A stretch of DNA of 64,000 nt from Clytia hemisphaerica (taxonomy: Eukaryota > Cnidaria > Hydrozoa > Leptothecata > Clytiidae): assembly GCA_902728285.1 (NCBI GenBank), contig CACVBU010000693.1, forward strand, positions 518,779-582,778, written 5' to 3'. Of the stretch, positions 9,501 to 61,538 are shown piece after piece. A program made the position numbers and the translations under genes. Within the stretch, counting starts at the first letter, position 1, and every line of letters starts with the position of its first letter. The notes beneath the pieces were generated by a model. The model was given only the letters and a program-made list of their open reading frames with translations, did no database searches and was not told where the DNA came from.

Positions 9501-12500
9501 AAACGTCTTGAAATTGTCCAGCACAATAACATTTTCCATCTTCGTTTTTCAATAGGTGTTCGTGGAATGATCCCAGGTATTTATGTCGAAGAACTGACTG
9601 ATACCAACCAAACCACTGATGTAAGTGTTTTCCCTCAAGATTATTAAGAAAATAAGACCATTAGTGACAAAAGAGACTTTAATACAAAATCAAACGATTA
9701 GTGAGCGCAATTTGAAGATTGTTCGAAGATTCGATCCTTCTTTTAAATTGTTTCAATGTGATTTTTCATGGTTTTTTAGAAGAAAGAACCTTTCCTACCA
9801 TTAGATCAATATATTGACAAGATTTAACTTCGCAGAACTTAACTCTAAAATTAATACTAACTCAATTAATTCGTGATTCTTCTTCTACTGGAATTTACTT
9901 GGATCTACTTTTTTCTTCTCCATCATCAGACTGGACATCATCACCACAGACTGTCGCGACGAGACCAGCGTGATCATCAGCAGATCGTGAGTCGGGAACG
10001 AACCTTCATCACACTTTATGATTATGATCCTTACACTATGGGAACTACTGATCGACCTGATCTTCAACTCTCTCTAAAGAAAGGAGAGGTCATCACAGTT
10101 CTGGGTGAAGTGGATATTGAAGGATATTTCACAGCTGTCATCAATGGTAAAGTTTGAAAATGTTTTTTTTCTATATTCTATTTGGCTCTGCTCTCTCGAA
10201 CACGATGTTCAATATACTGTAATGTCAAAAAAAACATACCTACCGCGTTATATGGATTTAATCTTGGTAACTTCTTCACAATTATGGAGTTTAGCTATCT
10301 ATAACTATTTGACATCTTGAAAAAAAATCAACAGTAAATATAGACTAAAGAACTTTCTATTTGGTTTGGTCTGGATAAGTTTCTGTCAACCTTTACCTTG
10401 GCAAGTTTTCCTTAAGAAAATTGTATTAGTAATTGCCTAAGATTTTCTACGTTTTTTTAATCAAATTTCCCGGTTCACACTTTCTTTAGGTCGACGTGGG
10501 TTAGTCCCATCCAACTTTGTTGAAGAATATTCACACTCTTCACATGCTGCGCACAATCATACGAGAGAAGAACATTTCCAAGGCACTGTACAAGTTGATG
10601 GTATTTCTGGTAAAAAACATATAAAATTGAGCTTCCTTCAAGACCATCATGTTGAAGTTTATTTTCCGATTTATAACGACTCTAAAAAAAGCCTAAAATA
10701 TCAAGAATAAACTCCGTTTCACAAGAATAGTACTACAAAAGGAGAGTTCTCTCGGCCCTAGTGACGAAATTGTTGATTTTCTTTTACAAACCTTTTCAAC
10801 GTTCTCGTCTAAAGTTGAACTAGCACTACGGTACAAGACTGTAGCTTTTTAAGTAGAAAAGGCTAGTTTTTGTGAATTGAGTTGCTAAAATTTAAAGAAA
10901 TTAACTAAATCGACTTTAAATCCTTTTTAGGACCGCCATATGCGCCACGTGATTTGAAAGTAAAAAGAGTGGTCACACGCAACGCAGTTTTGTTGAGTTG
11001 GCTTTTACCGTCCATGGATGACCATTACATAAGTAATGGATGCAAAGTCATCGGATATCGAGTAGGTGTTTTGCATTTTTCTCAGCCTTTCGATACATTA
11101 ATGAATGCACAGAAAGGATTCAACCTTCCCGATCTCACTCGTCTGCTTTTTTGCAATGATCGTATGTACTTGTTACAGTGGTGGTCTTCAAATTTGATAG
11201 TAGAAAATAGATAGAAGCGTAATTCAGCAGTCGTTATTGTAATTGCGGATCTCTTTGCCTTCGCTGGCGCTCTCTAATTTGACGTTATACCAAGGACTAC
11301 TACGCCTCATTCTATTCAATAATATAATCATAATATCGAAAGTCACTGTCAATGAGAAGCTCTCATGAAGGACGCACTTCTTTTCGATACGATGTATTTC
11401 CTATGAATTGTTTGAGAGTCAATGTAGTTAGTCTGTTGGTATCTTTAAGGCTTCTTTTTTAATTATAGCTTTGGGTGAATGGTCAAAGAAAACAAGATGT
11501 GACAAACCCATCGTGTAACAAGGCCCTTATTGATGATGTCGATTTAGCAGGACGTGTTGAGTTCAGTATTCAAACGATCGGAGAAAGCGACGTGTGTTCT
11601 GAGAAATGTCACTTCGCGATCACCGGCGCTTTGAGTACTCTTGTAAGTAATGTATATGCTCTTTGGAAACTCATTGAAGGCTTTTCTTCAGGAAATCATC
11701 CTGGATTTTAATCTTTAAATGAAAATGTCATTTGTAATTTTTTTAAATGAAAATGTCATTTGTAATTTTTTTAAATGAATGCTTATTGAGAATTTGGTGT
11801 TTGATTTGTAGCGGGAGAGTTTTATAATGGTTCTGAAAAGATGAAGATGGTAAGCTTACGGTTTACAATTGGTCTGACCTTAAGGAAACTTATTTTGGCG
11901 GGAGCTAATTTGAATTTACCCTGCCATTCGCCAAAAAGATCGGCTCTCGGCAAAAATTAAAAAAGATTGCTGCCTCGCCATGGAAGTCCCTCTCAAATTT
12001 AAAAATAGGATTTTTGCTGCTGACCAAAATGAGCTTCTTAAGGTATTTACCGGTTGCATTCTACTTTTTCAGGAGACAAACGAAACATTGGAGATGGAAG
12101 GTGATCATGATGTGGTAAGAAAATTATACTTTTTTATTTGTTTATATCCAAAGATCGTTTATTACGTTAAAGAAAAGGGTGGCGTTTTCCTATGAACCTT
12201 CCACGGGCTTTCCATAGATATATGTTGCTTCTTTATCATTGACCTTGCATCAGCTCAAAATTATTACTCATGAGTCTCTTTATGAAATGTCGAGGGAGAG
12301 GCTTTTACACCAATTAGCTTACGAATGAATAGACCTTATCGGAGTTTTTGATTTTTCTAAAAAAGCGATGCATTGTGGGATTGTTTCGAGTGTATTACAA
12401 TAGAAATCTCTTAGGAATTCCTCGAGGGAATTCTATTGTAATACACTCGAAACAATCCCAAAATGCATCGCTTTTTTAGAAAAGTCAAAAACTCCGATAA

Positions 12501-27400: not shown

Positions 27401-30400
27401 AGATGTCAAAAAGCTCGAGTTTAATACCTACTACACACATAATATTTCTTCCTGAACATGTTTCAAAATTAAATGGGAAATAATTGCAAAGATTCACAAG
27501 TTCTAAGTCCCGGAAGAATTAAAAAAGAAATCGATTTGACAATTCAACTCACTTAGTCACTTAAATTCGTTAAAATTATATATTTATCATCCGTCCTTCC
27601 AACAAACTTCCTTGTCCGGCAAAGTATAAATAGTGGACAAAATTTCCAGAAAAATCATCATCTTTCAAATTCATCATTTGACAAGGAGAAAACAGATCAA
27701 CATAAAAATGCAGATTTGGAAAATTTTGCTTCTTCTCTCCTTCTTGGCTGCCACAGTTTACTGTAAGTGTAATATTTATCAAGATTTCAAACATAAAAGC
27801 ACAGGGCGTTGTGAAGTACTATGCTTGGACAAACTCTCGGAGTTCAAATAGGTTAACGTTGTCTCTTTAATTAATACAATGAAAGTGAGACGATCCGCCG
27901 GCGTATGCAAAGCCACTGAAGTACTTGGCCAATAAACTAGAAATGACACTTTTTTCCATATTTACTTAACAGGTGAAGAGAGCAATGAACTTCAAGAAGA
28001 AAACAACAACGACGAACAAGTTGAAGACGAACCATCTGCATTGACTTTTCAAGATGAAGAAATTGAACAAGAAGAAAATGAAATTGAAGATGAACAACAA
28101 AATGGTAAGCCGTATAAAATGTGAACGATCGAATTCGTTTGAAATGATTTAAGTCTAGCTCTACTTCAAAAAATATTTTAAGAGTGAGGTCAATTACGTA
28201 TTTAGTATACACTTTCCAGCTATTTATGAAGTTTCCGATAAAGAATAGGAAGGTCTTTTGGCGGACGGGAGACTTTGAACCCAGATAAAAATGAAAGTAA
28301 AAATTTTAAAGAAAAATCATTATGCTGTTTTTATTTGAAAATCTTTACTCTATCATTTGTTGTTCTTTTTAATTTCTAGATGCAGCACCACGCGGCTACA
28401 AGACCAAAGTTTACACTGAGAAAAATAAGAATGCTGGAGAATGCAAAAGAATCAACTGGAAAAGAATTAGTTGTTGGAACAAGAAAGTTGGTTCTCGAGT
28501 TGAACGACGATGCAAAATGCAATACAGTAGACAATGCAAAATCTGTTCAAGATTCTACTATCGAACATGTACTAGCTACCATGGGTGTAAAAACGGTCCA
28601 TTGCAACCAAGACAATGTGCCAGAAAAATCGTTGGTAAGGGCTTTGCATGGAGAACAGCTCACACATCTTACTAATTTGACTAATATTTTTTGTATTTTT
28701 GACTAATTATTTTTGCATGTATTTAATTATTTTTGTTGGAGTAAAGAAATTGAATCTAAAAAACAGTTGACCATTACCTCCTTTCACTTCCAAATAAAAT
28801 ACAGCTAAAATTTGGGACGGACAGAGCTCGATACAATATGCCAGGGGGAATTTAATGATAATAGCCACTTTCTTTTCACCTTCCAAAACAAGCAAAACAA
28901 AGCATACTTAGATTAAAAACGTGATTCTAACTACAAGAAGGGCACAGCTAATTAAATTGGAGTCCTTTTTTTGATTCTTTAAACCATCATGTCGAAACGA
29001 AAATGAAAAATATCTTGGCTCCCAAGGTTAAGATTGAACAGCTTTAAAGTATTATTTAATAGATTTTACCCAGGATTATTGTATTCATTTATCGCTTTTC
29101 CACAGTTCTTAATCCCTAACTTGAGACTTTAACATGAGATTTCTTCCAGTCATTAAAAATAAACGAAACTTTTTACACCCACGGGTCTTTGGAAGAGTTT
29201 ATCTTAGTCCAGAGAAAAGTATCTTAATCCTGAATTGAAAAGGTGGCTGAAACTTGGTAAAGAATAAAGTTCCTAGAACCAACAGATAGAACCCACAGAC
29301 AAGTTTTGTACCCTTTTTGAGTAATTTTCAGTACGCATCCCTGTGAACAAGAGTGTTTCTTCCAAAACATGAAATTCCTTAAGATAAATGAACGAAACAG
29401 ACTCTACACAAAAATTATTCACTATCCTAAAAAAAGGGAGATCATTGTGCTTAAGTGACTCTACCAGCTGTGTTCGCGACGCAAAGAACTGTGGAAGTAT
29501 CGTAAATATACTTGAACGACTCAGGAGGATGAGGCAACCTTGTATGCTTAAATCTGACAAGTCTTCGTTACCACATCACAGTGACAAGCATATCTCCCCG
29601 TGCTTTTGTAAATCAGCAATGGTACCCAATTCTGTTCATATGACAAGGGTTGGCCAGGGTGAAGGCTAATTCTATTGCCAAGTGAAACACAGCACCGAGT
29701 GGGATCCGAACTTCGAATCAGGAATGAAGGGATTTTTTCAGAGAGGTGGGGTTGGACGCAGATACATTCAGAAAGTAGTTATCAACCAGAGAGACTCACA
29801 AAAACTCAACCATTAATTTGAACTACAACTCACGCTCCATGAGTTTATCATGTTAGGAGGCAAACGTATCGCATACTGCACTAATACTAATTTGACTAAT
29901 TTTTTGTATTTTTGACTAATTATTTTATTTTTGCTTGCATGCATGCATGCATACATTTATTTTTATTGAGTTAAAGAAATTGAATTTGAGAAATCAGATG
30001 TATTGTGTGCTTCCATTACTGAGCAAAATAAAGCAAATATTTCCATTTTGAACGGACCGAGTTTCAAATATGTCAAGAAAAATTGGTGAATTACAGCAAA
30101 CTTAGATGAAGGATTTGAATTTTTCGTGCCTCGCATTACATGAAGGATGAAGCTGAGAAGATTACAGTAATTTTCTTTTAGTACACCCCTTTGCTAAAGA
30201 CTCGCAGGGACCCCCGCCCTACTGGAAAATTTGACCAAAGTCTGATACCCGATGGGAAAAATACATTCTGGGCCCCACTGGGAAATTAACTATCATTTAA
30301 TTTCCATTCGAAATTCAAAGTGAAAAATGTAGGCTTCTGCTCATCCTCTAGCGACAAGAGTTTCTTATAGAAATTATCTGTGTGTAGAGGTCTGTGATTT

Positions 30401-33400
30401 GGACTAAAAGAATAGCACTTCATAACCATCACAACTGGATTGTTCGATCTTGGAACAATAGAATTTCTATTCCCATTGGCATTTGGACAAGTTCCACCTG
30501 GGCTGTGAGACAGAAGTGTTTGAGTTAACAAAACTGATGATATGGGAAAGCTTCCTTGGTGTAACAACCCATCTTTTGAATCAAAACCCCGGCACAAAAT
30601 AATGGAAAAGGTCTCGGTTCCAAAGGTTGAAAATTGAACGACATCAAAATACTTGTTCATAAAAGTTTACCCGTGAGTAATGTATGTTTCTACAATTCTC
30701 AATTCCCTTACTTGGGATTTAAATTAAACGTTTTTCCCAGCATTTGGCACCCAGGTACTTCCGGAAGAGTTTATCTTAGTATGGTATTGGTTTCAAAAGA
30801 CCCTGAATTGTACAATCTTCAGTAGAGATCCCTGTAAACAGGACCGTTCCTTCCATAACGAGAAAGTCTATAAAGATGAACGAAAGACATCCCATCCCAT
30901 GAAAAGGGAAATGATTAACTTACTCTGCCAAATCGCGACACACATATAGATGCTGGTGTATAGTAAATTGAATATACTCGAACGGATCGAGAGGACAGCA
31001 TATCCTCGCAGGGTTGAATCTGACAACTATTCACTACCATAACACAGTAATATTATGTATATCTCTTCATACACTTGTATCAGAGTGATGGTATCCCATT
31101 CCCCACAAATGACATTAGTTAGTTTGACCCCGGCGAAGGTACATCCACTGGTTGAGATTGAAGCTCCGAGCTCCTGCGAGGCAGTTAAGCCGTTTATTTA
31201 CAGAGAAGTGAGGTTAAACAGAAACACCGAGAAAGACAGACGTATCAATAATTAATTTGAGTTACAACTTGGGCTCCAGGAGTTTATAAAGATGAAGCAC
31301 GGTTCGCGTACTACACGATATCTTTTTCAGTACATGGAAATCTCCGTCAAAGTCCCAAAACCACTAGATAGCAAGAGATGCAATGATAGTTTCGCAAATT
31401 GTAGTGTTTTATGCATTAGATTGTGAAAACTACATCATCAACTTTCCCTTTATTTATCAGATTCCGTATATAAACAATCCTCAATTTAATATGATCCGAT
31501 TGAACACCAAACATCATGTATTTAGGATATCTGAATAAACCAAACCACACCACGTAATTCTTCACCCCCCTGAGCATATAGTTAAGCAATAGAATGGATG
31601 ATGATAACGATGTTGATTACGAAAAATTTAATCAAAATAGATAAGTATTAATCAATTCCTGCAACGCACATAACTTCCTCCTTGTAAAATTCAAATTTAA
31701 AGGGGAAATAATTGTACAAAATGCACAAGTTCCAAGGCCGGAAGAATTAAAATAGAAATCGATTTGACATTTCAACCCCCTTAAAGTCGTCAAATTATTT
31801 ATTTATCATCCGTCCTACCAGCAAACTTCCTTATCAGGCAAAGTATAAATAGTGGACAGAATTTCAAAAAAAATCATCATCTTTCAAAATCATTTATTTG
31901 ACAAGAAAAAAGAAAACAAAATCAAAATGCAGATTTGGAAAATTTTGTTTCTTCTCTCCTTCTTGGCTGCCACAGTTTACTGTAAGTGTAATTTTTATCA
32001 AGAATTCAAATAAAATAGGAGAGGGCGTTGTGAAGTACTATGCTTGGACAAACTCTCGGAGTTCAAATAGGTTAACATTGTCTCTTTAATTAATACAATG
32101 AAAGTGAGACGATCCACCGGCGTATGAAAAGCAACTGAAGCACTTGTCAATAAACTAGAAATGACACTTTTTCCATCTTTACTTAACAGGTGAAGAGAGC
32201 AATGAACTTCAAGAAGAAAACAACAACGACGAACAAATTGAAGACGAACCATCTGCATTGACTTTTCAAGATGAAGAAATTGAACAAGAAGAAAATGATA
32301 TTGAAGATGAACAACAAAATGGTAAGCCGTATAAAATGTGAACCATCGAATTCGTTTGAAATGAGTTAAGTCTAGCTCTACTTCAAAAAATATTTTAAGA
32401 GTGAGGCCTATATATTTACACTCTCCTCAGCTTTATATGAAAATACTTCAAATACATTGTTCTTTTTTATTTCTAGATGCGGCACCACACGGCTACTACA
32501 AAACCAAAGTTTACACTGAGAAAAACAGGAATGCTGGAGAATGCAGAAGAATCAACTGGAAAAGAATTAGTTGCTGGAACAAGAAAGTTGGTTCCCGAGT
32601 TGAACGACGATGCAAAATGCAATACAGTAGACAATGCAAAATTTGTTCAAGATTCTACTATCGAACATGTACTAGCTACCATGGATGTAAAAACGGTCCA
32701 TTGCAACCAAGACAATGTGTCAGAAAAATCGTTGGCATGGGCTTTGCTTGGAGAACAGTTCACACATCTTACTAATTTGACTAATATTTTGTATTTTTGA
32801 CTAATTATTTTATTTTTGCATGCAATGAATTTATTTTTGTTTGGGGTAAAGAAATTGAATCTAAAAAAAAGATGTCCTTTCATTTCAATGAAATACAGCT
32901 GAAATATGGGACGGGCAGAGCACGATTGATGTGGGGAAAAATTTAATGATATTAGCCGCATTCTTTTCACCGTTCAAAATAAGTAGAACACGGCATACTT
33001 AGATTAAAGAGGTGAATTTCGTGCCTTTTCCTAAAGAAAATGTATGACAGCTGAACCCAAAATAAAAACTAAGCAAAAACAATCTAAGGAAAAAAAATAC
33101 GGCAAAACCAATGGTAAAAATCAAATGATGGAAATAGTCCAAAACAAATACTCGAATACTGCCACTATCAGAGCCTAGTATAAAAACTGCCACTTAGTAC
33201 ACACCCATCCAGCCAACGCCACACACCTTAATAACTATTTCCATCCGACAAACAAAGTATAAAAGACAAATCCAATAAAATGACAAATCCGGTACTAATA
33301 TTGTAAGGGTATATAAGTAGCTCAGTTTTGACCCTTGTTGCTGGACTGACTTGTGTACCAATAAAAACAGGGTCACCTGCGACACAGGTCCACCGAAGTG

Positions 33401-36400
33401 GTCATCAGCAGCGATTTTCTTCCCTTGCATACAATAAGGTAAAAATAAGAAAATAAAAATCGACAGTCCATAGTAAATAAAACGGTGATATAATTATTAT
33501 GAAAAATTCAGTAGGTTATCACAAAATACTTTTGAGTCAGCACCGAACTCTTTGAAAAGAATATGCCTACCATAAATTTTTCTCAAGACGCTTCGTATCC
33601 CTGCTTTGCTTGCACCTTGTGTTAGCATTTTCCTATATAGATAGTGACAAGGCTCTATAAAACTACTAGGTACAGAAGAAATCCGAGCTGTGCTAACTAA
33701 TGCTCGCTAAAAACAGTGTTTGCAGGTGTATGGTAAATATACTCGAACGGCTCGAGAGGAAAGTGCAATTTTTGTATACTTAAACTTGACTGAAAGTTTT
33801 CCCGGCACTCTTGTTACAGAGGGATGGTGCCCAATTCCCCTCAAATAGCATTGGTTTGGTTGACACAAAATGTCAATACACTAACCACAACTCTGCTCCC
33901 ATTTTGCTTTATTAGCGTAACAGACAATAGTGTCCGATTCACAGTCTGTCATGGAAATTAATTCATTGAAAACCCTGCAGTGGTAGTATATAGTAAGTCT
34001 CACTACAACGGGTCATCTTCTAGAAGCAACTTTCGATGCATTAATTCAATTGCATACGATTTTATTTGAAAAACATAAAATTAAAAGGTCATTTTTTCTT
34101 TTTCATTTTACATAATAACAAAAATTAAAATGCTCTGAACTATCTTTTGATCGGTATATAATTTGATAGAATTTCAAAAGCACTGTTTGAAAAATGACAA
34201 GCAAAACAAAGATTAGTGCACTCTTCAAAGCAGCGAGTTGAATTCAATTAGTTCCCAAGTTCAGGACAACCCATATCATCAAGTTCTCATTGATCAACAA
34301 TTTAAAAATGTGCCACCTGTTTTACACGTCGGAAAATCTATAATTTTACTTTTCTGTCGGAATCATAAGACTACATTGGGGGAAGTTCTCCAACCACCGA
34401 AAACTGTTAAAATCAGAGCAAAGACGTAGAACTGATGTAAACGGAATTAAAAATTTTGCAACGTTAAGTAAAAAAATACGAATAAGCAGAATAATGGCAC
34501 TTTCTACATCCAAACCGGAAAATCTTAATGATTGTCAACGATATCACGATTAATCAATTAACGTAGGATAATGAATTGTTACTAATTATAGTTCGATTGA
34601 AATTGAGTTCAATTCAATATGACCACCAATGCAGGGGAAGTTTAAAATAACTAAAACATATTCTGTTACGTAAAAATGTAACCTGCCTTAACTCATCCGT
34701 AAGGTGAAGAAAATGAAAAATGAAAATGAAAAATTCCAATCTTTGGCTCTATAAACTGAGACAAGGATATTTTTCAACTCTTTCGATTCCAAAACGATGT
34801 TTCAAACACAGATAAACCGCGCCTAAAATTGCAGTCTCTAAAAGTTGACCTTTCACCCTTTTGGCACGTAAGAAGAAAACAACAAAAACAGGGATATTCA
34901 GCGCCAAAGAACCACTGAGTAGATTTACTTAGCTTTTAGTAGGGGACCAAGCCTTGGGTTCCATGACATCTTTTCTACAACCTAGCCATTTTTAGTCTAT
35001 TCCAGCGAACAGTATATTACAAGATATTTTTGAGAGGGAGGACGCGGATTAGGCCCGGGAAAACTTTTTATGACCAAAATAGTGACGCCGTAGGCAAAAC
35101 TGCAAGGGAAAATAAGGGGTAGAGAAATAGCTTATTTTCAAAAGTCAAAATAAACGAAAATGATTGGTACCATCTGAAAGAGCATGAAATTCTGAGCAAA
35201 AAATTGTATTACAACAACTCTCTGACTAAAACACACAAAGGAATACAGCGGCAAGATGGATGTATTTGAAAAAGAAGCGACTATTCCAATGACAAGGACT
35301 GGCCTCAGGAACAATAAAGCTTTGTGAACAGTTGTGAATCCTGTTTATCAGCAATGAAAATACATTCATCATTTTGATGTAGAAGCGAAGAGCATAACTT
35401 TCTAAACGCATTTTTAGAGATGCTAGGTTCAAGAGATTTTCATCATATGTACGGCTGAAATAAAAATAAAGGAAGCACAACCTTAACAATTAACCAAATA
35501 TTTCCTTCGACCTACATGATGTGATAATTATGTCGTAATTTAACCCTAAAGGACCATTGAAACAGGAAGTCTTGAAAGTTTAAAGTTCAAAAGAAAGAAA
35601 CATAGTGAAACACCCACTGAATTACCATACTTGTAAAAAAGGAAATTCATCAGAATGTCGACCAGTTCTTCCTTGTCCTGAATAGTATAAATGGTGGACA
35701 GAATTTCCAGAAAAATCATCATCTATCAAATTCATCAGTTGACAAGAAGACAACAGATCAACATTAAAATGCAGATTTGGAAAATTTTGTTTCTTCTCTC
35801 ATTCTTAGCTGCCACAGCTTACTGTAAGTATAATTTCTGCTTATTCCAACAGGGTTTGATGTTAAGGAGGAGCTTTGTACTTTACTTTGTCCTTTTTGCC
35901 AAAGAAAACATTCAAGCAAAAATGAGTTTATCCGAGTTGTTCCGATTTTTATCGAACAAAGGATTGTTTTTGATGTTTTCAATGAACTGATTTGTTCAGC
36001 CAAGTGAGCAAATAGAATCGGCTTAGTTTTTATCGTATAAATCGGAAAATATTTTTATTTGTACGCCAATGATTGCCGTAAGGCATAAAACTTGAAGCAA
36101 TGTATTTTTTTTAACAGCGAAATTTTGAAATAAATTTATGATCGATTAAATAGTTAACAAAAAAAAAAAATACCGAGTAATAGCACCTTTTAACTCGGAA
36201 TTTTATGATAATTTATTCTAAATCGACACACAACATATATACTTAGCAAAGAGCTATTTAATTCAATTTGACAGGTGCAGCAAGTAACCAAACAAATACT
36301 GAAGAAAAAGAAAAAGTCAACACTTTGAATGACGAACAAGGTGAGTTCCCATCCAAGAAATGTTTATCCTGACAATGTTGAATAATTCCTGGCGAAGCCC

Positions 36401-39400
36401 AGCTAAATATTTATTTTCATAATATTCCCTACATTTTACTGCATACAGAACGAGTTCTTCAGTTTATTCACATGATTTCTATCTTTAGAAAGTGATTTCT
36501 ATCTCGAGAAAGTGAGCGAGTAGCTCAGTCGGTAGAGCATTCGCTTTACATTCCAAGGATTGTGGGTTCGATCCTCGGTCACCACCAACTCATCGATCAG
36601 ATTGGGTAATCTGATCTAGGCGATAAGTTACTGGGACCTGAGAGTAGGTGTGGCGAACTCCATCTCAGTATTCGGCCTCCCAGGTCTGATGAACATGATG
36701 TTGAACAAATCCAGTAATGGTTTTAATTTTCTATTTCAGATCCCTCGTACCACGGATATTTGTTTTCAACGAAAAAGGTTTACACTGAGAAAGAGAAAAA
36801 CGCTGGCCAATGCAGAAGAATCAACATGAATATCATCAGCTGCTGGAAAGGAAATTGTCTCCAAAAGAAATACTATAAGTGTATCAAATATGCAACAAGA
36901 TGTAAAGTGTCTTATGACAGAGAATGCAATGTCTGCAACAGATATTACTATCAGAAATGTTATCGACGCATGCATTATGGGAGCTATGTGACCAAATGTA
37001 TTAATGGACCACCAATGCCAAGAGAATGTAGAAGAAAAATTGTTCAACATGTTCCTGAAGACAGAATCACTAAATGTAAGTAGAAATAACAAATTAGAAA
37101 TCCTTTATACTATCCAGCATTGAAAGTCATTTGGTTCTAAGCTATGAAACGAATGCAAAAAAGGAGTAAATGTAACAAAGACACCATGTGAGCAATATTG
37201 AAAATAGGAAAAAAACACTCCCTCCACTCACACTACATTTGACATTATACAGATTTACAAGCTAGGCTCACAGTGGGCCTCTAACCGATCTTATTTTACA
37301 CTATTCTTGAATCGTATTTTGAGGGATGGTTTTCCCATGCATCGTTGAGGTTTTCTTTGAAGGTCTTTATAGACTTTGCTGAAACGACATTTCTCGGCAG
37401 TCTATTCCAGGTTGGCACACATCTGTAATAAAAGGATTTCGTTTGAGGTCCGTGGAAACCGTCATTTGCGAAGTTAGGTAGAAGCTCATGGGGGTGTCTT
37501 CGATTTGGACGCGTACGTTTACTCAACTTGTCAGGTATTGTTGTTTTATCGTAGTAGTTGAGGTGTTTGTAAACCTGTACCATATCACAAAAATGTCTTC
37601 GAAATTCGAGTGTTGGTAAGCCGAGAATTTTGAGCCTATCACTATATGAAAGGCTGCGGTACGTTGGGACCAATCTTGTTGCACGTCTTTGCACTCCCTC
37701 GAGTAGGTTGACGTGTTTACGTAATCTTGGTGACCAAACTGATTGTGCGTACTCAAGGTGTGGTCGGACAAATGTTGAGTATAGTGTACGGAGGATCTCT
37801 GGAGTTAAGTTGGTGAAACCTCGTTTGATGACACCAAGCATTGAGTTGGCTTTTTTTACTTGATTGGCTATATGGTCTTCAAATGTCAATTCAGCATCAA
37901 CCAATATACCCAGGTCTTTTTGTTCAAATACGTGCTCAAGCTGAATATCACCAAGACGATACGGATGAGCGTGTTTTATATTTACGAATTTGCCGATTGT
38001 GAGAACGTGACATTTATCCGGATGGAACTGTAGTAGCCAATCAATGGACCATTTTTCGAGTGTGTCTATATCACTTTGTATGGCAAGGGAGTCATGGACT
38101 GAAACTACCTCTTTGAAGATCTTTGTATCATCTGCGAAAAGTAGCAGATCCGAAATCACCTTGTCAGGCAGATCATTTATGTACAGTACAAAGAGTAGAG
38201 GGCCCAAGACACTTCCTTGTGGTATTCCACTTAATACACTATCCATGTTGGATTTTGCTTGGTTTACTTTTACCAACTGCTTTCTTCTACTCAGAAACGA
38301 TGAAATCCAGTTCTTTATTGATCCAACTATGCCATACCCTTCTAGCTTTTTGCAAAGCCTACGATGAGGCACTGTATCAAATGCTTTAGCGAAATCAAAA
38401 TAGATGCAGTCTACAACTTTTCCGTCTGATATACTTTCACAGCACCTGTCGACATATTTCAATAGTTGAGTAACAGTGGAACGTCTACTGATGAAGCCAT
38501 ACTGCTTATCTGATAAAAGGTTTAAGTTTGTCAGGTGGTTTGTGATATGTTCTCGTAGTATCGACTCCATCAGCTTGCAAACCACGGATGTTAAACTCAC
38601 TGGTCTGTAATTGATGGCCAAGTTATGCGCGCCTTTGTTCTTGAAGATGGGCGTGACGTGAGCAACCTTCCAATCCTCAGGTAGTACCCCTTCAACCAGT
38701 GTCTTATTCATAAGCCTTGAAAGGGGCTCGGAAATTTCGTCGACAAGTTCTTTCAACATTCTTGGATGTATTTCATCAGGACCAAAAGATTTGTTTGTAT
38801 CCAGATCTTTGATCTTCTTACTTATCATATCTTTAGTTATGATGATGTCTGCAATATCTTGTTCTGTTCTTCGTGGAAATTCCGGAAGTTCTCCCTCAGG
38901 CTCGATGGTAAAGACACTGCAGAATTGTTTTTGGAGAATGTTTGCTTTCTCGTGGTCTTCGTGACGTAGCGATGACTTGTCTTTAGGTGACTCGAGAAGT
39001 GACGAAATTATCACGAGCCCTAAAACACTAATTACGTTTATTTTAATGACCTTTTTCCAGCACACGACGAAGCAATGAAAGATGGAGACGAATTCAAAAG
39101 TAAAGATGAAGTCGAAGTTGAAGAAGATAAAGATCAGAATGGTAACGTTTTTGGCCCAGCTAGCTTTAGCGTACTGGGCCTTTCATTAGCATTCTGCCCG
39201 GTGTCAGTGTGTAACAATTTACTAGGCGATACGCGTTTTCATATATGGCGTTTTCAAGCACAGGCTAATTCAGATTGTGAAGGATTTGATTGGCTGTTAG
39301 AACATGATTGACAGAATAAAAAACAATTGAAATCGTCTTTATTGGTTAAAAACATAAAAGGAGAAAATACAATTAACTATTAAAACTATAACTATAAGAA

Positions 39401-42400
39401 CATAACAGATGTAGTGTGTTTTAAGAAAAACAATGTAACAAACCGTAACAAACCTTCTTCTCTTTAGGAAGATGTTCTTTTAAAAAAAAATTGTTTTTAC
39501 ATTTCTCTATCATGTGAACAGTTCAGTTGTTCACGTGTTAGGAAAAAAACATCTCTGTATATAAGATTTAAATATTATGAATTATTTCTTATTGGCCCAG
39601 CTAGCTTTAGCGTACTGGGCCTTTCATTAGCATTCTGCCCGGTGTCAGTGTGTAACAATTTACTAGGCGATACGCGTTTTCATATATGGCGTTTTCAAGC
39701 ACAGGCTAATTCAGATTGTGAAGGATTTGATTGGCTGTTAGAACATGATTGACAGAATAAAAAACAATTGAAATCGTCTTTATTGGTTAAAAACATAAAA
39801 GGAGAAAATACAATTAACTATTAAAACTATAAGAACATAACAGATGTAGTGTGTTTTAAGAAAAACAATGTAACAAACCGTAACAAACCTTCTTCTCTTT
39901 AGGAAGATGTTCTTTTAAAAAAAAGTTGTTTTTACATTTCTCTATCATGTGAACAGTTCAGTTGTTCACGTGTTAGGAAAAAAACATCTCTGTATATAAG
40001 ATTTAAATATTATGAATTATTTCTTATTGTTGTAAATAAGAGATAGCCGAATGGTCTAAGGCGTCTATGGCTTGTATTAGCGACTCCAGGTTCAAATCCC
40101 CTCTGCTACTCAAGTCTTGTTCAGTTCATACTTTTATTCGCTGGGCCTTCATGCCCTCTGGGCTTCTTGTTGTTGTAAATAAGAGATAGCCGAATGGTCT
40201 AAGGCGTCTATGGCTTGTATAAGCGACTCCAGGTTCAAATCCCCTCTTCTACACAAGTCTTGTTCAGTTCATACTTTTATTCGCTGGGCCTTCATGCCCT
40301 CTGGGCTTCTTGTTTATCATAAAGAGGGTTTGAAAAAGAGACAAAGCATTTTTTAAATCACTCACCACCGGTTTTTTTCTTTTAAATGAAACCATCAAAA
40401 ACAGCAAAGTCCATCATCAAAACTTTGAGACATTATATTTCACATCCTGCTACATACAGAATCACTAAAAACTTGTGTAGAACACCAAAAAATACACTAA
40501 ACAAAGCGAGAAAGAGTAGCTCAGTCGGTAAAGCATTCGCTTTACAATCCAAGGGTTTTGGGTTCGATCCTCGGTCACCACCAACTCATCGATCATGGGT
40601 AATCTGATCTAGGCGATAAGTTACTGGGATCTGAGAGTAGGTGTGGCGAACTCCATCTCAGTATACGGCCTCCCAGGTCTGATGAATATGGCGATGAAGA
40701 AATCGTGTAACGGTTTATTAATTTTTGGTTCTAGATCCCTCATACCACGGATATTTGGTTTCAACGAAAAAGGTTTACACCGAGAAAGAGAAGAATGCTG
40801 GGCAATGCAGAAGAATCAACATGAATATCATCAGCTGCTTGAAAGGAAATTGTCTCCAAAAGAAATACTATAAGTGTATCAAATATGCAACAAGATGTAA
40901 AGTGTCTTATGACAGAGAATGCAATGTCTGCAACAGATATTACTATCAGAAATGTTATCGACGTATGCATTATGGAAACTATGTGACCAGATGTATTAAT
41001 GAACCACCGATGCCAAGAGAATGTGCAAGAAAAATTGTTCAACATGTTCCTGAAGACAGAATAACTAAATGTAAGTAAAAATAACAAATCAGAAATTCTT
41101 TACTATCCAGCATTGAAATTCATTTGGTTTTGAGATATGAAACGAATGCAAAAAAGGAGTAAACGTAACAAAGACACCCTAGCAACAATATTGAAAATAA
41201 GAAGAAAAACACTCCCTCAACACACACTACATTTGACATTTTATCCTGATATATCACTAACCCTAACAATAATTAACTTTATTTTAATGACCTTATTCCA
41301 GCACACGACGAAGCAATGAAAGATGAAGACGAATTCAAAAGTAAAGATGAAGTTGACGATGAAGAAGATAAAGACCAAGATCAGAATGGTAACGTTTTTT
41401 TATCACAAAGAGGTTTTGAAAAAGAAACAAAACATTCTTTAAAACCACTCTCACTGATCTTTTCTTTTAATGAAACCATCAAAAACAGCAAAGTCCATCA
41501 TCAAAACTTTGAAACATAGCATTTCATGGAAAAACAAATGGTTCTATATCTTTGATTTCAGATCTTGCTACATACAGAATCATTAAAAAACTTGTGTGGA
41601 AGACCAAAAAACACACTGATAAAGCGAGAGAGAATAGCTCCATTGGTAGAGCATTCGCTTTACAATCCCAGGGTTGTGGATTCGATTCTCTGTCACCGCC
41701 AACTCACTACTTAGATTAGGTGATCTGATCTAGGCGATAAGTTACTGGGACCTGAGAGTAGGTGTGGCGCACCATCTCAGCATTCGGTCACCCAGGTCTG
41801 ATGAATATAATGATGAACAAATTGCGCAATGGTTTTAATTTTTGATTTTAGATCCCTCGTACCACGGATATTTGTTTTCAACGAAAAAGGTTTACACTGA
41901 GAAAGCGAAGAACGCTGGCCAATGCAGAAGAATCAACATGAATATCATCAGCTGCTGGAAAGGAAATTGTCTCCAAAAGAAATACTATAAGTGTATCAAA
42001 TATGCAAGAAGATGTAAAGTGTCTTATGACAGAGAATGCAATGTCTGCAACAGATATTACTATCAGAAATGTTATCGACGCATGCATTATGGGAGCTATG
42101 TGACCAGATGTATTAATGGACCACCGATGCCAAGAGAATGTAGAAGAAAAATTGTTCAACATGTTCCTGAAGACAGAATCACTAAATGTAAGTAAAAATA
42201 ACAAATCAGAAATCCTTTACTATCCAGCATTGAAAGTCATTTGGTTTTAAGCTATGAAAAGAATGCGAAAAAGGAGTAAACGTAACAAAGACACCATGTG
42301 AGCAATATTGAAAATAGGAAAAAAACTCCCTTTAACACACACTACATTTGACATTATATCATGATATTATCACCAACCCTAACAATTATTACCTTTATTT

Positions 42401-45400
42401 TAATGACCTTATTTCAGCACACGACGAAGCAATGAAAGATGAAGACGAATTCAAAAGTGAAGATGAAGTTGACGATGAAGAAGATCAAGATCAGAATGGT
42501 AAAGTTTTTATACCCAAAAAGATTTTGAAATAGAGACAAAACTCACCATTCTTTTCTTTTGCTTGACACCGTCTAAAACAGCAAGTATGAAAATAGTCAA
42601 AACTCAATCATCAAAACTTCAAAATATAATATTTCATGGAAAAATAAATCGTCGTCTATCTTTGATTTCAGATCCGGCTACATACAGAATAACTAAAAAA
42701 CTTGAGTCGAGCACCAAAAAATACACTGAACAAGATCGATTGACCAATATTTGCCGAAAGACTGGCCAAGGAAAGGAAGTGAAATGCTGGGAAAAAAGAA
42801 CCTGCGTCGAAAGAGATTACAAAGGCTGCTTGAAAACCGAAGTTAAAAAGAGATGTGATATTATTTATGACAAAGAGTGTAAAGTGTGCTCTACATTTTA
42901 CTATGAGAGATGCTACCAACTACACAAGTATGGAAAGTACCTCCAATCTGAATGTGAGAAATCACGACAAATGAAATCTTGTGTATGGAAAATAAGTGGA
43001 CAAGTCACCAAAACCGAAACAACTGGAATCACTTATGAAACACACAACCCCCATCACTATTAAGAGACGGAATTCCGGACAGAATCAACATATCAATTTA
43101 ACATTTTTGTGATAATTTAATAACTAATATTTATCGTTTGTAATCTTTAGCATGCTACTTTTTTGTTTTAGTGGGTTAAGTAAAATGCATTTAAAAGTAA
43201 CCACATTGCCCATTTATTTTGCATTACTGACGCATCTCTGTTATAAATACACAGGTTTCGAATTAGATTTTTGCATAGCTTTTACTTTGATCCCATGTTA
43301 TTTGCACGAAGTTACATTGCAACAAGCAATTTTAGCTCATTTTTTTCATTTTGCTATACTGTATGAGTCACTATAACAGCCAAAAACATAAAATGATAAA
43401 GCAATAATAATCCTATTCATTTTATTGAATTTAAGAATAGAAAATTATTTTTTAATGAGTAAAAAGAGGTTTAATTAGAAACCCGTGTATTACTCTATGA
43501 AGAACATAATTCAGTCACGCAGTCAATCATCACAGTCACACAAACAGGCTCTAAGAAGAGTTGACAAAAAAAAAATTTATTCAGATAACCATTGTATTGA
43601 TACGGAACTTCCAAAGTAAACATCAGTTTTGTCATTGTTAAAAATGAAAGCGTAATACATACCTGAGGATTTTGCCGAATCTTGAAAAAATGATTTTTAA
43701 ATCGTCTTCATTTGTGACAGGGTTCAATTTGCAGACAAACAAAACGTTTTCTGGTGGTTTTTCATCCGCATCTTCAATATCACCAATCTGAAGAAGAAAA
43801 TTTATTTCATGGAACATATTATTTTTACAAGTCTTGAAACCATAGAAATTTCATTCATTACATTAGATCACGATGATGTGCATCCAGCGCTTTTAAGTAA
43901 AACTAATAGACCTTTTCATAAATTACATCACAAACATCACTTGCCTCGTCTTGAAAAAATTGCCATGGTGATTAGCTCCCAGCGGATTTTATTACAACTA
44001 CCTTCTATTCAGACATGATCACCATGGAAATTGTTTGATTACAAGGCAAGTGATGTTTGTGACGTAATTTATGAAAAGGTCTATTGTTGTAGGCAGATAG
44101 TCAATTTCACTCTACAAAATAAACCAAAATTCTTTAAGATTTCAATCTATTCTCAAAAAGCCTTACTGTTTCGAGGATTTTAGTTCCAATTTTCAATTCT
44201 TTGTCTTCAAGTTCCTTTTGTTCTTCTTCTTTGGATTTCTTTTCGCTCAAATCTTCATCCGCAGCAATACCTCCACTCTTTGGAAAAGGATGAAAACATT
44301 ACTAATACAATCTCAGTAACCTGATGGGAAATCCTTAAGCTAGTGGGAATAAGATTAAAGGAACTATTTATATCAGAAAAGGATAGGGATTTCAAACATT
44401 TTTATCTTTGTGATTCTCAAAATAGTGCTCTATTTTAAAGTGTAGATTTTAGTATAGTTTTTCAATGGGAATATCATTCAAGGGCATTAAATTTCTCTTT
44501 GCCAAATTTTTCAGAAAGTAGATTAAGGTTTCCCTGGATAAAATATTATGATTATTTATGTCTGTCCCATTTTATACCTCTAACTGTTCTTTGGTTGGTT
44601 CTGGTGATCTGTCAGGAATTACAAGCCCTTTTGGATCATCAAAAGGATCATCCAATATGATTGTATGTGATACTCTGGAAAGAAAAAAAGTCAGTTATAA
44701 GATATTCATGCCTTTTAATTTACTTTTTCATCTGAAATAACTGATAGTATCTAGTAAAAACTGGCAATAAAACATCAAAAACAAACATTTAAGTTAAGAT
44801 AGGACATTCAATAAAGTAGACTATGATAAATTTTTAGTTCTTCTCCGTATAGAAAAACAAGTGATACTTTTATGGACCTACCTGGTTATGTATTTAACAC
44901 ATTTATAATTGATATCTACGTTACGTGACCATTAAACAATCATTCAGAACACAAATAGTGACGATGTATTAAAATTAGTCGTTTGTTTCTTATATAAAAA
45001 CGTTTAGAAACCAAAATTTCATGCTCTTGAAATATTCTTTCATATTTAAGACTTCGTGAGCAAAAAAAACTTCTATCTCATAAAAAAATTGAGTAATTCG
45101 GCTGAGAACATTGATGTATGCTTATTGATAGTGATTCTTATAGATAAAGATGCGTTTTTTGAGCCTAAAAATTCTTTTTTTACAAAAATCTGCTTTAGCC
45201 ATTTTTTAGCCCTTTTTTGGCCCAAATTTGCCCAAAAACATTTTTTTTTTAAATCGACCTCCGTCACACTTGAAGGTTTATTGTTACGCATCTTTGTGCA
45301 AAATATCATAAAGAATGGAAGAGCCAATCTCGAGAAAAGCCTAAGTAATTGATAATGTGCTTATAAAAAAATATTGAACTTGGCCAGTTTTTCTATAAGA

Positions 45401-49290: not shown

Positions 49291-51233
49291 ATGGGAAATA
49301 GCGTAGGAGTGTTCAGTGCAGAGATTTTGGCAGATTCGAGCAAAATGGCCGAGGAAGAAGACCTTGATCTCTCTGATTGGGATGATGTTGATGAAACAGA
49401 AGCTACACAAGAACCATCCTTGTCTTCAACAGAGGCCTCCAAAGCAGAATCCGATGATGAAGAAGAAGATTGGAATGATGTTATTGCCATAGAGATCCTT
49501 GAAGATTACTGTGTCCCACTCATGAAAGAACTTGAATCCTTTCGAAAAGATGGAATCTTGTGTGATGCTATCATTGCTGTTCGATTAGTCACCTTTTTTC
49601 AGCCATTAGTCCTTTTTTCAAAGATGTGTTTTCTAAACTCCAAGACTCTTCAGACAACAAAATAACACTACATAATTTAACTGGGAATACAATGGATGAT
49701 ATTCTTCACTTTGCCTACACAGGGGAGGTGTGTGTCCATGATGGAAACGTACGCCAACTTCTTGCTACATCTAGATTTCTTCAAATGAATAATTTAAAGG
49801 AGATGACAACTTCTTATTTGGAAAAGAAACTCAACCCTTCTTCTGCTGTTGATATACTTTTACTGGCTGACAAGCACAAGTGTGAAAATCTCTTGGCAGC
49901 TACTGAGAAAGTCATAATTGATAATTTTGTTATTGTATCAAAGACTGAAGGATTCAAAAAGATGAAATTTGAAATGATACACATGTTTATACAAAGTGAA
50001 TACATCAGAGTTAGCAAAGAAGAAGAGGTCTATGAGGCTGTTATGCTTTGGGTAAAATCTGACTTTGGCAATCAAAGACTTGAACGTATCAGTCAGTTAC
50101 CCAACCTATTGAGAGAAATTAGATTTGCACTAATTTCTCCCCCTTATATAACAGAAATGACCATGGATCCTACAATTCTTGAAAACTCTGAATGTTATGA
50201 TATTGTAACAGAGGGATTGAATTATCATGGTTCAGCAGGAGTTATGGCGCCAAATCATTCCTATGAGCCTAAATTAACAAAACCACGGAAATTAATGGAA
50301 ACAGTTCTAGGTGTGATTTCAGTTGGTGGATGGGATAAAGAAAAGCCTGTCACAGATGTATATGCGTTTGTTGAATCTAAGAAGAATTGGTTTCCTTTGA
50401 AATCAATGCCTACTGCTTGCTATGGTCACTCAGTAGTTAACAGTGATGGCCTTATTTATGTTATTGGTGGGAGAGATGAAAATGCTAAACTTCTAACAAC
50501 TGTTACAAGATTTGATCCAGCAACCAATGATTGGAGAAGTGTTAAAAATTTGCCTTACGCTTTGACTTCAACTGGGGTTTGTATTTTTAAAGGTCAAATT
50601 TATGTTGTTGGTGGCATCTCCCATAAGGGATCATTGAAATCAGTATTAAGATATAGTTCAAGATATAATGTATGGCAAAAGGTTGCAAATTTGAAATATC
50701 CTAGAGGAGCCTGCACTGTAGTGACGGATGGGAAATTAATGTATGCAATCGGAGGAATGAGAAAGGTTGTTACTGGCCAGGATGTATCTTGGGAATATCT
50801 TGATTCAATGGAGATTTATGATAAAGATTCTAAGTCTTGGACAATGGGGAAAGATTTATTAAACAAACGAGCATATGGTACTGCTGTTTATACTAATAAA
50901 AAGATTTATTTAACAGGAGGGCAAAATAAATTATTGTCAAATGTCAAAGGAATTGAGCTTTATGATACCATGAAAGTTGAATGGGTTTCTATTTCTTATT
51001 TTGGAATCCAACGCTCATTAAATGGAATTGCTTTAAATGAAAATACATTCTTTTTGGTTGGAGGAATTTCTAAAGATGGAGAAGTTATTGATTCTGTTGA
51101 AGTTTTTGATATGACAAGAAACCGTTCAACAAAAGTTGCAACGCTGCCAAAAACATTAAGTATGCTCCAATGTTGTACTTTACCTATGAAGTTAGCAGTG
51201 CTGCAAGGCATGGATACTGAGTTGATTAATTGA
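49291..51233 (+). CDS. BTB-BACK-Kelch (KLHL-type) protein, single exon, frame broken inside BTB
   Basis: KLHL proteins are mostly substrate adaptors of Cullin-3 ubiquitin ligases. Two overlapping frames make one gene. The first (49,291 or Met at 49,345) gives an acidic N-terminus (DLSDWDDVDE...) and the BTB start (FRKDGILCDAIIAV). From about 49,585 the protein continues in another frame (SHLFSAISPFFKDVFSKL...), so 49,626 is not a true start. Compared with the usual BTB consensus, four or five residues are missing at the break, fitting a small out-of-frame deletion or a sequence error. BACK follows (NPSSAVDILLLADKHKC...), then six kelch blades with the GG hallmarks (SVGGW, VIGGR, VVGGI, AIGGM, LTGGQ, LVGGI). 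It ends at TGA 51,233, with AATAAA at 51,285. It lies head-to-head with PPIL4. The lack of introns suggests a retrogene-like origin. Confidence 0.85.
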
Positions 51234-58600: not shown

Positions 58601-61538
58601 TAAAGATACAATAGCATATTTGTGTGTATCAATAACGAAAACGAATCATTATTTACAAACATCATAAGCAGCTTATATTGAACCCTATTCATCATCATTA
58701 TATTTTTAGAAAACGAAAGTTTAAAACCTCTCTAAGTGGTTTTCAATGATGGGTGGCGGGCGTTAAAAATCGCAACCATAGAGTAAAGATACGGGAAGAG
58801 GGCGTATCGTTAACAGGCGGGCTTTTTTCTAATAGAGCATTATCAAACTGCCGACTTTGATGGGAAAATGATTTATTCTGTCATTAAAGAGGCGTGAAGG
58901 GCGTAAACTTACTTCTTCGTTTTGATAGGCGGTGACTGCGATGAATTGCGTTTCAGGGAAAGTGTGTGTGGATATCGTACGTTCGCCTTCGGGTGCACCG
59001 ACTCGGATGACGTGAATTCGTGGTTGATATTTGTGTAGAGAATTTAACATAACCTAAAAACAAAACACAATACATTTGTCTAATTAATTGTCTAAATATT
59101 CAATTTGGTCTAATTGAGAAGATAAGGCTGCGACTAGGAAGTTAAAATCACGGTGACGTGGCAATGAAATTTGTGGCCGCCAGGAAGGAAATGGTATCGA
59201 TAGAATCTATTTCTCAGTTACTTTACTTCCTTCCCAGTTCTATTTTCGCCAGGTCCTAACAACATAAGGAAAGCGTGACCAATTAGTTGCTTTAGAAGGT
59301 GTTTTCCTGTCGGAATTTCAGGAGAATTTTATTATAGAACAATTTGAGAGTAGAAATATCTTTTAAAACTATTTCTGGTATGCAATCAATCAAATTTAAA
59401 TTTCTGTTTCTTTGAGATAAAAGTTTTCAAGAAATTAGAATTGCCGCTGTCAAAACAAGACAAAAAGTCAAAAAAAGTAATTAAATCGCCCGTTGACCTT
59501 TTTTTCATTCGATCTATTTTATGTTTTTAATAATTATTGAAAGCAAACGGTCACCTATTAAGTAGAAGGAATGGGAAGAAAAATTTTCACACTTTTTACA
59601 TTGAATAAAGGCATTCCTAAAAAATAGATTTTTTTCTTCTGACAAAAGACCGACTGAATGATGACCGATCGTAATTTGTTTTTCTTTTAAAAAAAGCCGC
59701 CGTAAGGAAAGATGGCAGGCAATTTTTTCGCAAAAAATCAAACAAGCTCCCTTGAGACCAGGAAAAACTTAACCCACATAACATCAATGTTATTCCGTTG
59801 TACGACGAATCGCAAAAAAAGCTCTAAGAGAAACTACCTAATCCTTCCAAATTTCAAAATAAGTCTCATAAGAAAAGACAGCCAGTATATCTACCTGTCC
59901 TTCGCCGTTCATTTTATTGGTCAGTTTAACTTTGGTAAACGCGACAGAATTTTTCATCCAATGATTTCCGAAATTTGGCGAGTCCGGGTGAATATATACG
60001 GAACTAGTGGTTGCGGGTTCGGGTTTTCCACCGGCTACCCATTCACCGTTAACGTATTTCCAGCGGTGGTCTTCAACAGCAACGAAGTCCAATAGGATGG
60101 AATACATAGCATTGGGTTCCAGACCTCTAATGTTCAATTTCAATACGGGAAACATACGCCTGAAAAAATAACACAAATACATTTTTTTGAGAAAAAAAAT
60201 TAATAAAATTTTAGAGGACTAGAAATTTCAATATGGCGCGTTTACAAGCCTTTTCCCTTTTTTCGATAGAGTAATAAGATGAAAGAAAACCGACAGCAAG
60301 ATTCAATTCATATTTGTTTATTTGCATTTCTACGGGTTTAGATTGATTAAACATTGAACTTTTAGATTTTTTGTTCATTTTATTTCATTTTTTCCCAACT
60401 TATGATACATTAAATTTGGGTACTTTATTGAACTTATACCCTGCGGCGAAAAAATCCTTCAAAAAGATCTTCTACCGTAAAATTCCTCAGTCGTTTCAAA
60501 ACATAAAATCTGCATACGTGGGGGATTCAAGCCCTTACTCATTAACAAGCATGCTGTAGTAATAAAGTTTTGAAACCTTGGACCTGACGTCAATTTGACG
60601 CTAACTAACCTGTCAATCAAAAAACTAGAAGTACAGGGGCAGAGCGTACAGCATAAATCTAAGACCTAAAATGTTTCGAAATCATATGAGAAAAGACTTA
60701 ATCTTTAAGATTCTAAGTCAGACGAGTAGAAGCGTGAAAAAAGATGATGAGATTTAAAAAACTGATAGCTTGATCGTGTGATAAGATAAGAGATTTCATA
60801 TAAGCTTGAAATAGGACACCAAAGTAAAGGGACTAGGAAGAATATTTTGAAGATTTTTTCTTCTTCGTAACCAAGTTCATCGATTACAGCTACCACGTGT
60901 TATTTGAATTTTAATAACGAAGTGTTTCTAAGTAAAAATTTAGAGGTACATACACTGATTTTTTTGAAATTCCTAAAGCCTTGAAACGCATGTTTGAAAT
61001 ACTGTATGTATTACTGAAACGTACAAAGTACAAGGAGATTCGTAGATTCGAAAACTAGTTTCCCGGTGGCTTATCAAGAAACGTAAAAATGAGTAATTGA
61101 TTCATACCTTCCATTTTTAGTCACAATCATTTCATTAGTCAGTGATTTGAATTTCTTCCACAGCTCTGAGTCCTCCAGATGAACATGGACATGTTTAGCT
61201 TCAGAAGATAATTCTTCTTTCTTGGGTAGTTCATCTTCATAATTCTTCTGTTTCTTTTGTGGTGGAGGTGCTTGGAGAATCTCCTCATTACCATTGCAGT
61301 CTGTTGTATATTTAGGTTGTTGTTGTTGTGGGTGTTGCGGCGGCGCCATTTGTCCTTGTGGTGGTTGTAAACTCATGAGCGGTTGATGTTGTGCCGCTTG
61401 TTGTTGTGCCATTTGTAGATGTTGTAGTTTTAATTCTTCGTGATGTTCGTCTGCCATTTTTTGTTTCTCTGACGTCAATATGGTGTTCATGGAGAAATTA
61501 TTAGGTGTCATTTCAGTCTCGTCTAATTTGCAATACAT
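55602..61538 (-). CDS. T: Brachyury-type T-box transcription factor, six coding exons, about 447 aa
   Basis: Brachyury is a DNA-binding regulator of gastrulation and axial or blastopore fates. Exons (5' to 3'): 61538-61108, 60159-59895, 59053-58913, 58366-58305, 56423-56365, 55987-55602; all phases agree. The N-terminus is Gln/Pro-rich (about 45-80). The T-box runs from about residue 118 ([20 protein letters not shown]) through [71 protein letters not shown] to [20 protein letters not shown]. The tail has the Brachyury-typical [11 protein letters not shown] motif in exon 6 and ends AYSTNI. Residues after RVG ([15 protein letters not shown]) differ from the vertebrate GGPQRMITSHSFPE, which fits a non-vertebrate. 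A further open stretch in another frame, 55,334 to about 55,590, may encode an alternative C-terminus. Confidence 0.93.
56424..58304 (-). other. Brachyury intron 4
   Basis: A 1.9-kb AT-rich intron between the end of the T-box (exon 4) and the short exon 5. No exon, repeat element or structured RNA could be supported. Confidence 0.6.

Follow-up and report, generated by a model that had tools for sequence, protein, structure and literature searches.

Acidic segments paired with basic cysteine-rich domains in a clustered family of secreted Clytia proteins, with a four-domain member

Genes A, B and C

The window considered here is a 64,000-nucleotide stretch of the Clytia hemisphaerica genome (GenBank assembly GCA_902728285.1, contig CACVBU010000693.1, positions 518,779 to 582,778; contig C480 below). 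It carries three related genes, A, B and C, whose predicted secreted products join acidic segments to basic, cysteine-rich domains (Table 1). A sequence-only reading of the window had described gene C as a nine-exon modular gene, and the rebuilt model (35769–43063, forward strand) confirms this exactly. It consists of one open frame, 590 codons long with the stop counted, that encodes 589 residues; all eight introns have GT/AG splice sites, every junction is in phase 1, and the internal exons (66, 336, 81, 336, 87, 336 and 81 nt) are all divisible by three. The alternation of acidic segments with basic cysteine domains in a secreted protein was borne out, and the three near-identical domains were recovered, domains 2 and 3 being 95 and 97% identical to domain 1. 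Domain 4, at 32% identity to domain 1, keeps the ten cysteines and the motif YTEQ; the earlier statement that it keeps only the cysteines and YTE(K/Q) was slightly understated, as seven further non-cysteine positions are invariant in a seven-row domain alignment.

The earlier reading missed two paralogues upstream on the same strand; gene C is not isolated but one of about 40 family loci. Gene A (27708–28675) and gene B (31927–32775) each consist of three exons, the first for the signal peptide, the second for the acidic segment and the third for a single basic cysteine domain. Their translations equal the public proteins P0003 and P0002, respectively, letter for letter, and these two records bear the names 'uncharacterized protein [Clytia hemisphaerica]' and 'Cnidarian restricted protein'. 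The phrase 'cnidarian restricted' is also used in passages of PMC4169000, the study from which the A and B records were presumably deposited. One homology search returned six matches: three labelled Clytia, among them P0004; the transcript-named P0006, which shares the C-terminal half of P0004 and is Clytia by inference; and P0001 and P0005, from two short ENA contigs, with 87% and 38–39% identity to gene C domain 1. Public family members are 160, 161 and 226 residues long.

Nonsynonymous divergence (dN) lies below synonymous divergence (dS) between the domains of genes A and B (dS 0.170, dN 0.026) and between exons 3 and 5 of gene C (dS 0.161, dN 0.026). Exons 3 and 7 give dS 0.033 and dN 0.011, with five changes in all, too few to judge. 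The low dN between domain copies, together with a promoter that gene C shares with genes A and B, argues that the exon pattern of gene C is not due to chance.

The introns of gene C hold traces of how it may have been assembled. The element upstream of exon 3 includes an Rfam tRNA match (36514–36581; 29.4 bits against a cut-off of 29) and is read here as a tRNA-derived short interspersed nuclear element (SINE); related SINE-like copies lie near 40510–40716 and 41628–41835, with approximate ends. In each of the introns ahead of exons 5 and 7, some 60 bases of the exon-9-type 5′ end run directly into the beginning of a tRNA-derived SINE. On the simplest reading, gene C arose from a two-domain gene in which a unit comprising SINE, domain exon, acidic exon and start of exon 9 was tandemly duplicated twice, and a long interspersed nuclear element (LINE) and further repeats lengthened the first duplicated unit. 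Gene C would then be a recent, readable case of a multidomain secreted gene arising from simpler ones. The reverse transcriptase frame, whose first codons overlap exon 4 on the opposite strand, is uninterrupted, which suggests a recent insertion. The intron before exon 5 also holds a tandem repeat pair (39148–40029; spacing 435–441 bases, 99–100% identical) and, at 40021–40306, a 143-base unit present twice at 97% identity and tRNA-like by eye; ARAGORN called no tRNA in the window.

Table 1. Features of genes A, B and C and of the gene C introns, in window coordinates.
Feature	Positions	Strand	Basis or remark
Gene A promoter, presumed ETS-like CTTCCTT + TATAAA	27607..27630	+	motif scan
Gene A exon 1, signal peptide	27708..27762	+	translation equals P0003
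Gene A exon 2, acidic propart, net −20	27973..28104	+	gene model, charge count
Gene A exon 3, basic 8-Cys domain, net +21, Asp first	28380..28675	+	gene model, Cys and charge counts
Gene B promoter, presumed ETS-like CTTCCTT + TATAAA	31826..31849	+	motif scan
Gene B exon 1, signal peptide	31927..31981	+	translation equals P0002
Gene B exon 2, acidic propart, net −20	32190..32321	+	gene model, charge count
Gene B exon 3, basic 8-Cys domain, net +19, Asp first	32477..32775	+	gene model, Cys and charge counts
Gene C promoter, presumed ETS-like CTTCCTT + TATAAA	35668..35691	+	motif scan
Gene C exon 1, signal peptide	35769..35823	+	rebuilt gene model
Gene C exon 2, weakly acidic, net −3	36275..36340	+	gene model, charge count
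tRNA-derived SINE-like element upstream of exon 3	36514..36723, ends approximate	+	Rfam tRNA match and repeats
Gene C exon 3, 10-Cys domain 1, net +17	36740..37075	+	gene model, Cys and charge counts
628-residue open frame, reverse transcriptase domain (RVT_1)	37299..39182	−	mostly intron 3 of gene C
Gene C exon 4, acidic, net −8	39061..39141	+	gene model, charge count
Exon-9-type 5′ end remnant joined to SINE before exon 5, putative duplication scar	40444..40508, end approximate	+	repeat comparison
Gene C exon 5, 10-Cys domain 2, net +15	40735..41070	+	gene model, Cys and charge counts
Gene C exon 6, acidic, net −11	41302..41388	+	gene model, charge count
Exon-9-type 5′ end remnant joined to SINE before exon 7, putative duplication scar	41562..41626, end approximate	+	repeat comparison
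Gene C exon 7, 10-Cys domain 3, net +19	41852..42187	+	gene model, Cys and charge counts
Gene C exon 8, acidic, net −13	42418..42498	+	gene model, charge count
Gene C exon 9, divergent 10-Cys domain 4, net +11, stop included	42672..43063	+	gene model, Cys and charge counts

Family-wide features of the precursors

Five domain types and P0004 were used as queries against the 417 Mb assembly that holds the window. Domain exons were found on contigs C480, C38, C735, C195, C94, C149 and C671, with one more on C915, while C239 and C281 gave signal-exon matches only. A motif scan of five contigs yielded 30 signal-exon genes: 11 on C94, seven on C195, five on C38, four on C735 (at two places) and three on C480. 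Outside these contigs lie three domain exons on C149 and two on C671, and signal-exon matches on C915 (two), C239 (two) and C281 (one). The family total of about 40 loci includes several broken ones, and all locus counts are lower bounds. Alone among the five scanned clusters, C480 has more domain exons (six) than signal exons (three); the surplus is gene C, the only multi-domain locus seen in a family of which nearly all other members have one domain. Mature domains are 98–153 residues long, and the signal peptide, judged from sequence without SignalP, is strongly conserved. The family has so far been seen only in Clytia and the two ENA contigs.

Charge, junction and cysteine counts are based on a curated set of 31 domains from 28 genes, namely 27 single-domain genes and gene C. 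Dropped from it were two C735 copies with stops in the domain, two C94 copies that yielded no domain exon, C94_1, whose domain lay beyond the sequence retrieved, two of the three genes on C149, the second gene on C671, the C281 locus, and both C239 genes and the second C915 match, whose domains were not found or not fetched; weak matches on C931, C504, C348, C472, C431, C470 and C526 were also left out. The proparts of the paralogues were read by eye from reading frames and their ends checked, GT following a G in 26 of 27 and GC in one (C195_6). The broken C735 copies lie at C735:288k–300k; those at C94:729188 and C94:732147 have a signal/acidic exon and no domain exon within 1.5–2.6 kb, and C281:427220–427369 holds a P0004-like signal exon with a promoter.

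In the single-domain members, the charge of the acidic propart nearly cancels that of the basic domain. Proparts range from −20 to −41 and domains from +19 to +41, and their totals lie between −10 and +8. The two charges cancel completely in four genes, including the diverged C149 (−41/+41) and C671 (−39/+39) members. Across 11 subfamily medians, propart and domain charge are inversely correlated (r = −0.82, Spearman −0.86). The mean absolute net charge is 3.0, compared with 7.3 for shuffled pairings (p = 0.00115, 0.115% of 100,000 trials matching or beating the observed value), a p-value that is not a clean probability because the subfamilies are related.

The genes also share a promoter arrangement. 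In 29 of the 30 signal-exon genes, CTTCC(T/C) stands 17–24 bases before a TATA-like box, which in two cases matches only a relaxed TATA. The window contains 109 TATAAA sites, of which five, family promoters included, have CTTCC(T/C) within 40 bases upstream, and CTTCCTY-N8-16-TATAAA occurs there three times, at genes A, B and C, where 0.12 occurrences are expected. Genome-wide, the stricter form ACTTCCTCGT-N4-14-TATAAA has 18 matches, 15 of them at family genes (counting the C281 signal-exon locus), and the reversed control has three; genes A, B and C, which carry the looser form, do not count towards the 15. Duplication from a common ancestor accounts for some of this sharing. The CTTCCT element is taken to be an ETS-like site. 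The strict matches away from known family genes (C649:2602158, C832:160930 and C932:234003) are probably due to chance, equal in number to those of the reversed control.

Each column of the ten-cysteine framework is filled in 29–31 of the 31 curated domains, and individual domains have 8–12 cysteines (nine in one copy). Missing cysteines are mostly paired: C3 and C4 in genes A and B, C2 and C5 by separate changes in C671 (the second C671 gene, outside the curated set, also lacks both), and C7 and C10 by separate changes in C735_1. The intact members show nine spacing patterns, in which the intervals from C4–C5 to C7–C8 are 9/8/3/8 (7 in place of 9 in the gene C domain 1 pattern). Spacing varies mainly at C3–C4 (8–12) and C8–C9 (5–17), as expected for hairpin tips, and the index sums of nested cysteine pairs agree within 3. 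With two exceptions, taken up below, the co-losses and spacing suggest a domain of two β-hairpins with nested disulfides C1–C6, C2–C5 and C3–C4 in one, and C7–C10 and C8–C9 in the other. In an AlphaFold2 (AF2) model from alignment A4, strands E24–43/E46–65 and E69–78/E81–91 match this layout. Neither Pfam (toxin, defensin and cathelicidin families included) nor PDB sequence searches gave a credible match, and no structural neighbour stood out in fold searches with AF2 models of modest confidence; in line with the earlier reading, these searches assigned the domain to no named family.

The first residue of the domain at the phase-1 acidic/basic junction is Asp in all 31 curated domains, a count that is partly built in, as domain starts were initially placed only at acceptors giving Asp or Gly. 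When the most pyrimidine-rich in-frame acceptor was chosen without a residue filter, Asp was again obtained in 27/27 single-domain genes, with a second acceptor ranking equal in two of these, and public proteins give the same junction for gene A, gene B and, through P0004, the C38_3-5 subfamily. Phase 1 after G permits Asp, Glu, Ala, Gly or Val, so that Asp is not forced. Apart from this Asp, one Arg (28/31) is the only non-cysteine column to reach 26 of 31 domains. The preceding residue is N, A, S, E, Q or T, as in EQQN/DAAPRG and QDQA/DAGHVR, where the slash marks the boundary. Neither the seven acidic/basic boundaries inspected nor those of gene C contain a dibasic site or amidation Gly of the kind that separates the copies of a multi-copy neuropeptide precursor, basic pairs lying within the domains, which makes a neuropeptide-type precursor unlikely. 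At both P1 and P1′ the astacin meprin β favours acidic residues, and at P1 it disfavours Ala, according to the portion of PMC11976865 consulted, where 'acidic prime side specificity' of astacins figures only as a reference title. The conserved Asp would fit cleavage by astacin proteases, a cut that is itself inferred.

Proposed function and alternatives

How settling larvae of cnidarians attach, and how they protect their surface, is an open question on which this family may bear. PF1, as portrayed in excerpts of PMC12225738 (Sci Adv 2025), is a set of several short, mutually homologous proteins secreted by the Clytia planula, with conserved cysteines, confined to Clytia and without a Foldseek match. 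PF1 is largely planula-restricted, highly abundant, of unknown function, and made by flask-shaped aboral neurosecretory cells in which two Clytia-specific astacins are specifically expressed; larval adhesion and antimicrobial activity are the options named (PMC12225738). The present family is likewise multigene (30 signal-exon genes, five clusters), short, secreted and cysteine-conserved, and is probably PF1. The earlier epithet 'undescribed' holds at best in part: two neighbours of gene C were already in NCBI/UniRef, and the family is probably that of PMC12225738. In contrast, the excerpted PF1 description includes no charge balance, Asp junction, disulfide map, promoter, genomic clusters or four-domain gene. 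If the two are the same, the predicted cleavage residue, the predicted disulfide map, the charge-masking rule, the paralogue list and a candidate promoter with which the cells might be marked or silenced become handles on PF1.

Signal peptide, charge balance, ten-cysteine framework, initial Asp, dN below dS and shared promoter can all be read from the sequence itself. It is proposed, with about an even chance of being right, that the proteins are charge-masked polycationic secretory precursors that are unmasked by a protease and bind polyanions. The acidic segment would mask the polycationic domain, allowing dense, neutral granule packing and protecting the cell. During or after exocytosis, an astacin-type metalloprotease would cut before the conserved Asp and free the domain. 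Within the material secreted by aboral cells of the larva, the free domain may then bind extracellular polyanions (mucins, glycocalyx, or the surfaces of substrate or bacteria). The gene C product might release several domains or remain an uncut multivalent polyampholyte. Confidence falls from masking through disulfide hairpins and astacin cut to polyanion binding, and as end use adhesion or mucus is rated slightly above antimicrobial action. The sequence-only interpretation is partly supported: of its two options, a precursor cut into peptides and a self-associating matrix or adhesive protein, both still stand, sharpened by the Asp junction and charge balance, and the neuropeptide-type variant has become unlikely.

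Several observations weigh against this proposal. Besides the relatedness of the subfamilies in the charge comparison, gene C is not neutral (net +27), and the C38_1/C38_2/C735_4 subfamily is over-compensated, at −8 to −10. Homology searches of public records found no protein covering gene C, though A and B turned up. Seven C195 genes have Ala before the Asp, a poorer fit to the meprin β preference; C735 and C94 members start with DED, leaving the exact bond ambiguous; and C195_6 has GC instead of GT after its acidic exon. For the disulfides, the loss of C3 and C4 in genes A and B is a single deletion and hence weaker evidence, and C195_3 and C915 have lost C1 and kept C6, which either speaks against C1–C6 or marks decay or rearrangement. 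The AF2 model of A4 has a modest mean predicted local distance difference test score of 67.6 (62–68 across five models), and an earlier alignment, A1, gave a different model. The identification with PF1 is based on the traits described for those proteins.

A larval glue or mucus cross-linker, a tentative alternative with less than an even chance, would need no cleavage: acidic and basic blocks would separate as a complex coacervate and harden on the substrate, gene C being the most multivalent member. Segment charges in gene C do alternate (−3, +17, −8, +15, −11, +19, −13, +11), the domains are rich in Tyr (7–18 in 28 of 31, three in each of the others), and larval adhesion has been suggested for PF1 (PMC12225738). 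However, conservation of the boundary Asp is left unexplained if there is no cut, a single domain with a single propart is the rule for almost every member, and evidence of 3,4-dihydroxyphenylalanine (DOPA) or phosphoserine is lacking.

Antimicrobial proteins in the narrow sense are an alternative rated almost as highly as the glue; here the propart would merely prevent self-toxicity, and the freed cationic domain would kill or shape bacteria on the larval surface, as Hydra periculins and arminins do. These Hydra antimicrobial peptides, in the sections of PMC10945409 used, have a signal peptide, bipartite charge, a complex cysteine pattern and many clustered paralogues (28 periculin genes, with clusters of 14 and 9), and are genus-restricted. 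The Clytia family follows the same recipe, with a signal peptide, bipartite charge, a cysteine pattern and clustered, apparently genus-restricted paralogues (3, 4, 5, 7 and 11 on C480, C735, C38, C195 and C94), and antimicrobial activity is among the options given for PF1. Charge balance is likewise known from defensins: in α-defensins, propiece and mature charge are related with r = −0.742, and the same, weaker relation is found in cathelicidins (as given in excerpts of PMC4571063). In mammalian α-defensin precursors, as in those of bird and primate cathelicidins, anionic propiece charge tracks cationic mature charge, but the Clytia mature domain is longer, with a ten-cysteine framework. Against antimicrobial action stand the domain length, large for such peptides, and the repetition of the domain in gene C. 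No Hydra-labelled protein was among the homology matches, the periculin and arminin sequences themselves, including their cysteine frameworks, not having been compared. Membership of the α-defensins was rejected, their framework having six cysteines and that of the Clytia domains ten.

It is quite improbable that gene C is not one transcript and that its exons are parts of separate or dying copies. The LINE and SINE insertions, duplication scars and missing public protein would suit such a history, but all nine exons are intact in one frame with canonical, in-phase junctions throughout, dN is below dS for exons 3 and 5, and the family promoter lies upstream. Venom proteins, of nematocysts or otherwise and on the model of coral SCRiPs, would also be cysteine-rich, taxon-restricted and multigene with a strongly conserved signal peptide, but this reading is very unlikely, given the lack of a credible Pfam match to toxin or other families, the propart without a dibasic end in the genes inspected and, provided that the PF1 link holds, expression by aboral neurosecretory cells and not cnidocytes. 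Coral SCRiPs are shorter, eight-cysteine peptides, and SCRiP is presumably the name of the coral family cited next. That family resembles the Clytia one in being a taxonomically restricted, cysteine-rich cnidarian family, a likeness drawn from the partial description in PMC2652719, not from sequence.

An extended form of the charge-masking proposal, unlikely as a whole, would make the family a new animal effector class, in which co-evolution of an acidic mask and a polycationic disulfide-ladder domain keeps precursors nearly neutral in charge, an astacin opens them at Asp, and family-specific ETS-like/TATA promoters switch the genes on jointly in a single cell type of the settling larva; gene C would be a step to a multivalent polyampholyte via SINE-edged tandem duplication.

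Neighbouring genes

Pfam places an Ig_RIMBP2 domain at 10909–11211 and a BTB-BACK-Kelch arrangement at 49566–51230, both on the forward strand. On the reverse strand are an RRM match just below cut-off at 43641–43850 and a T-box domain at 59841–60218, the latter presumably Brachyury-like from its motifs.

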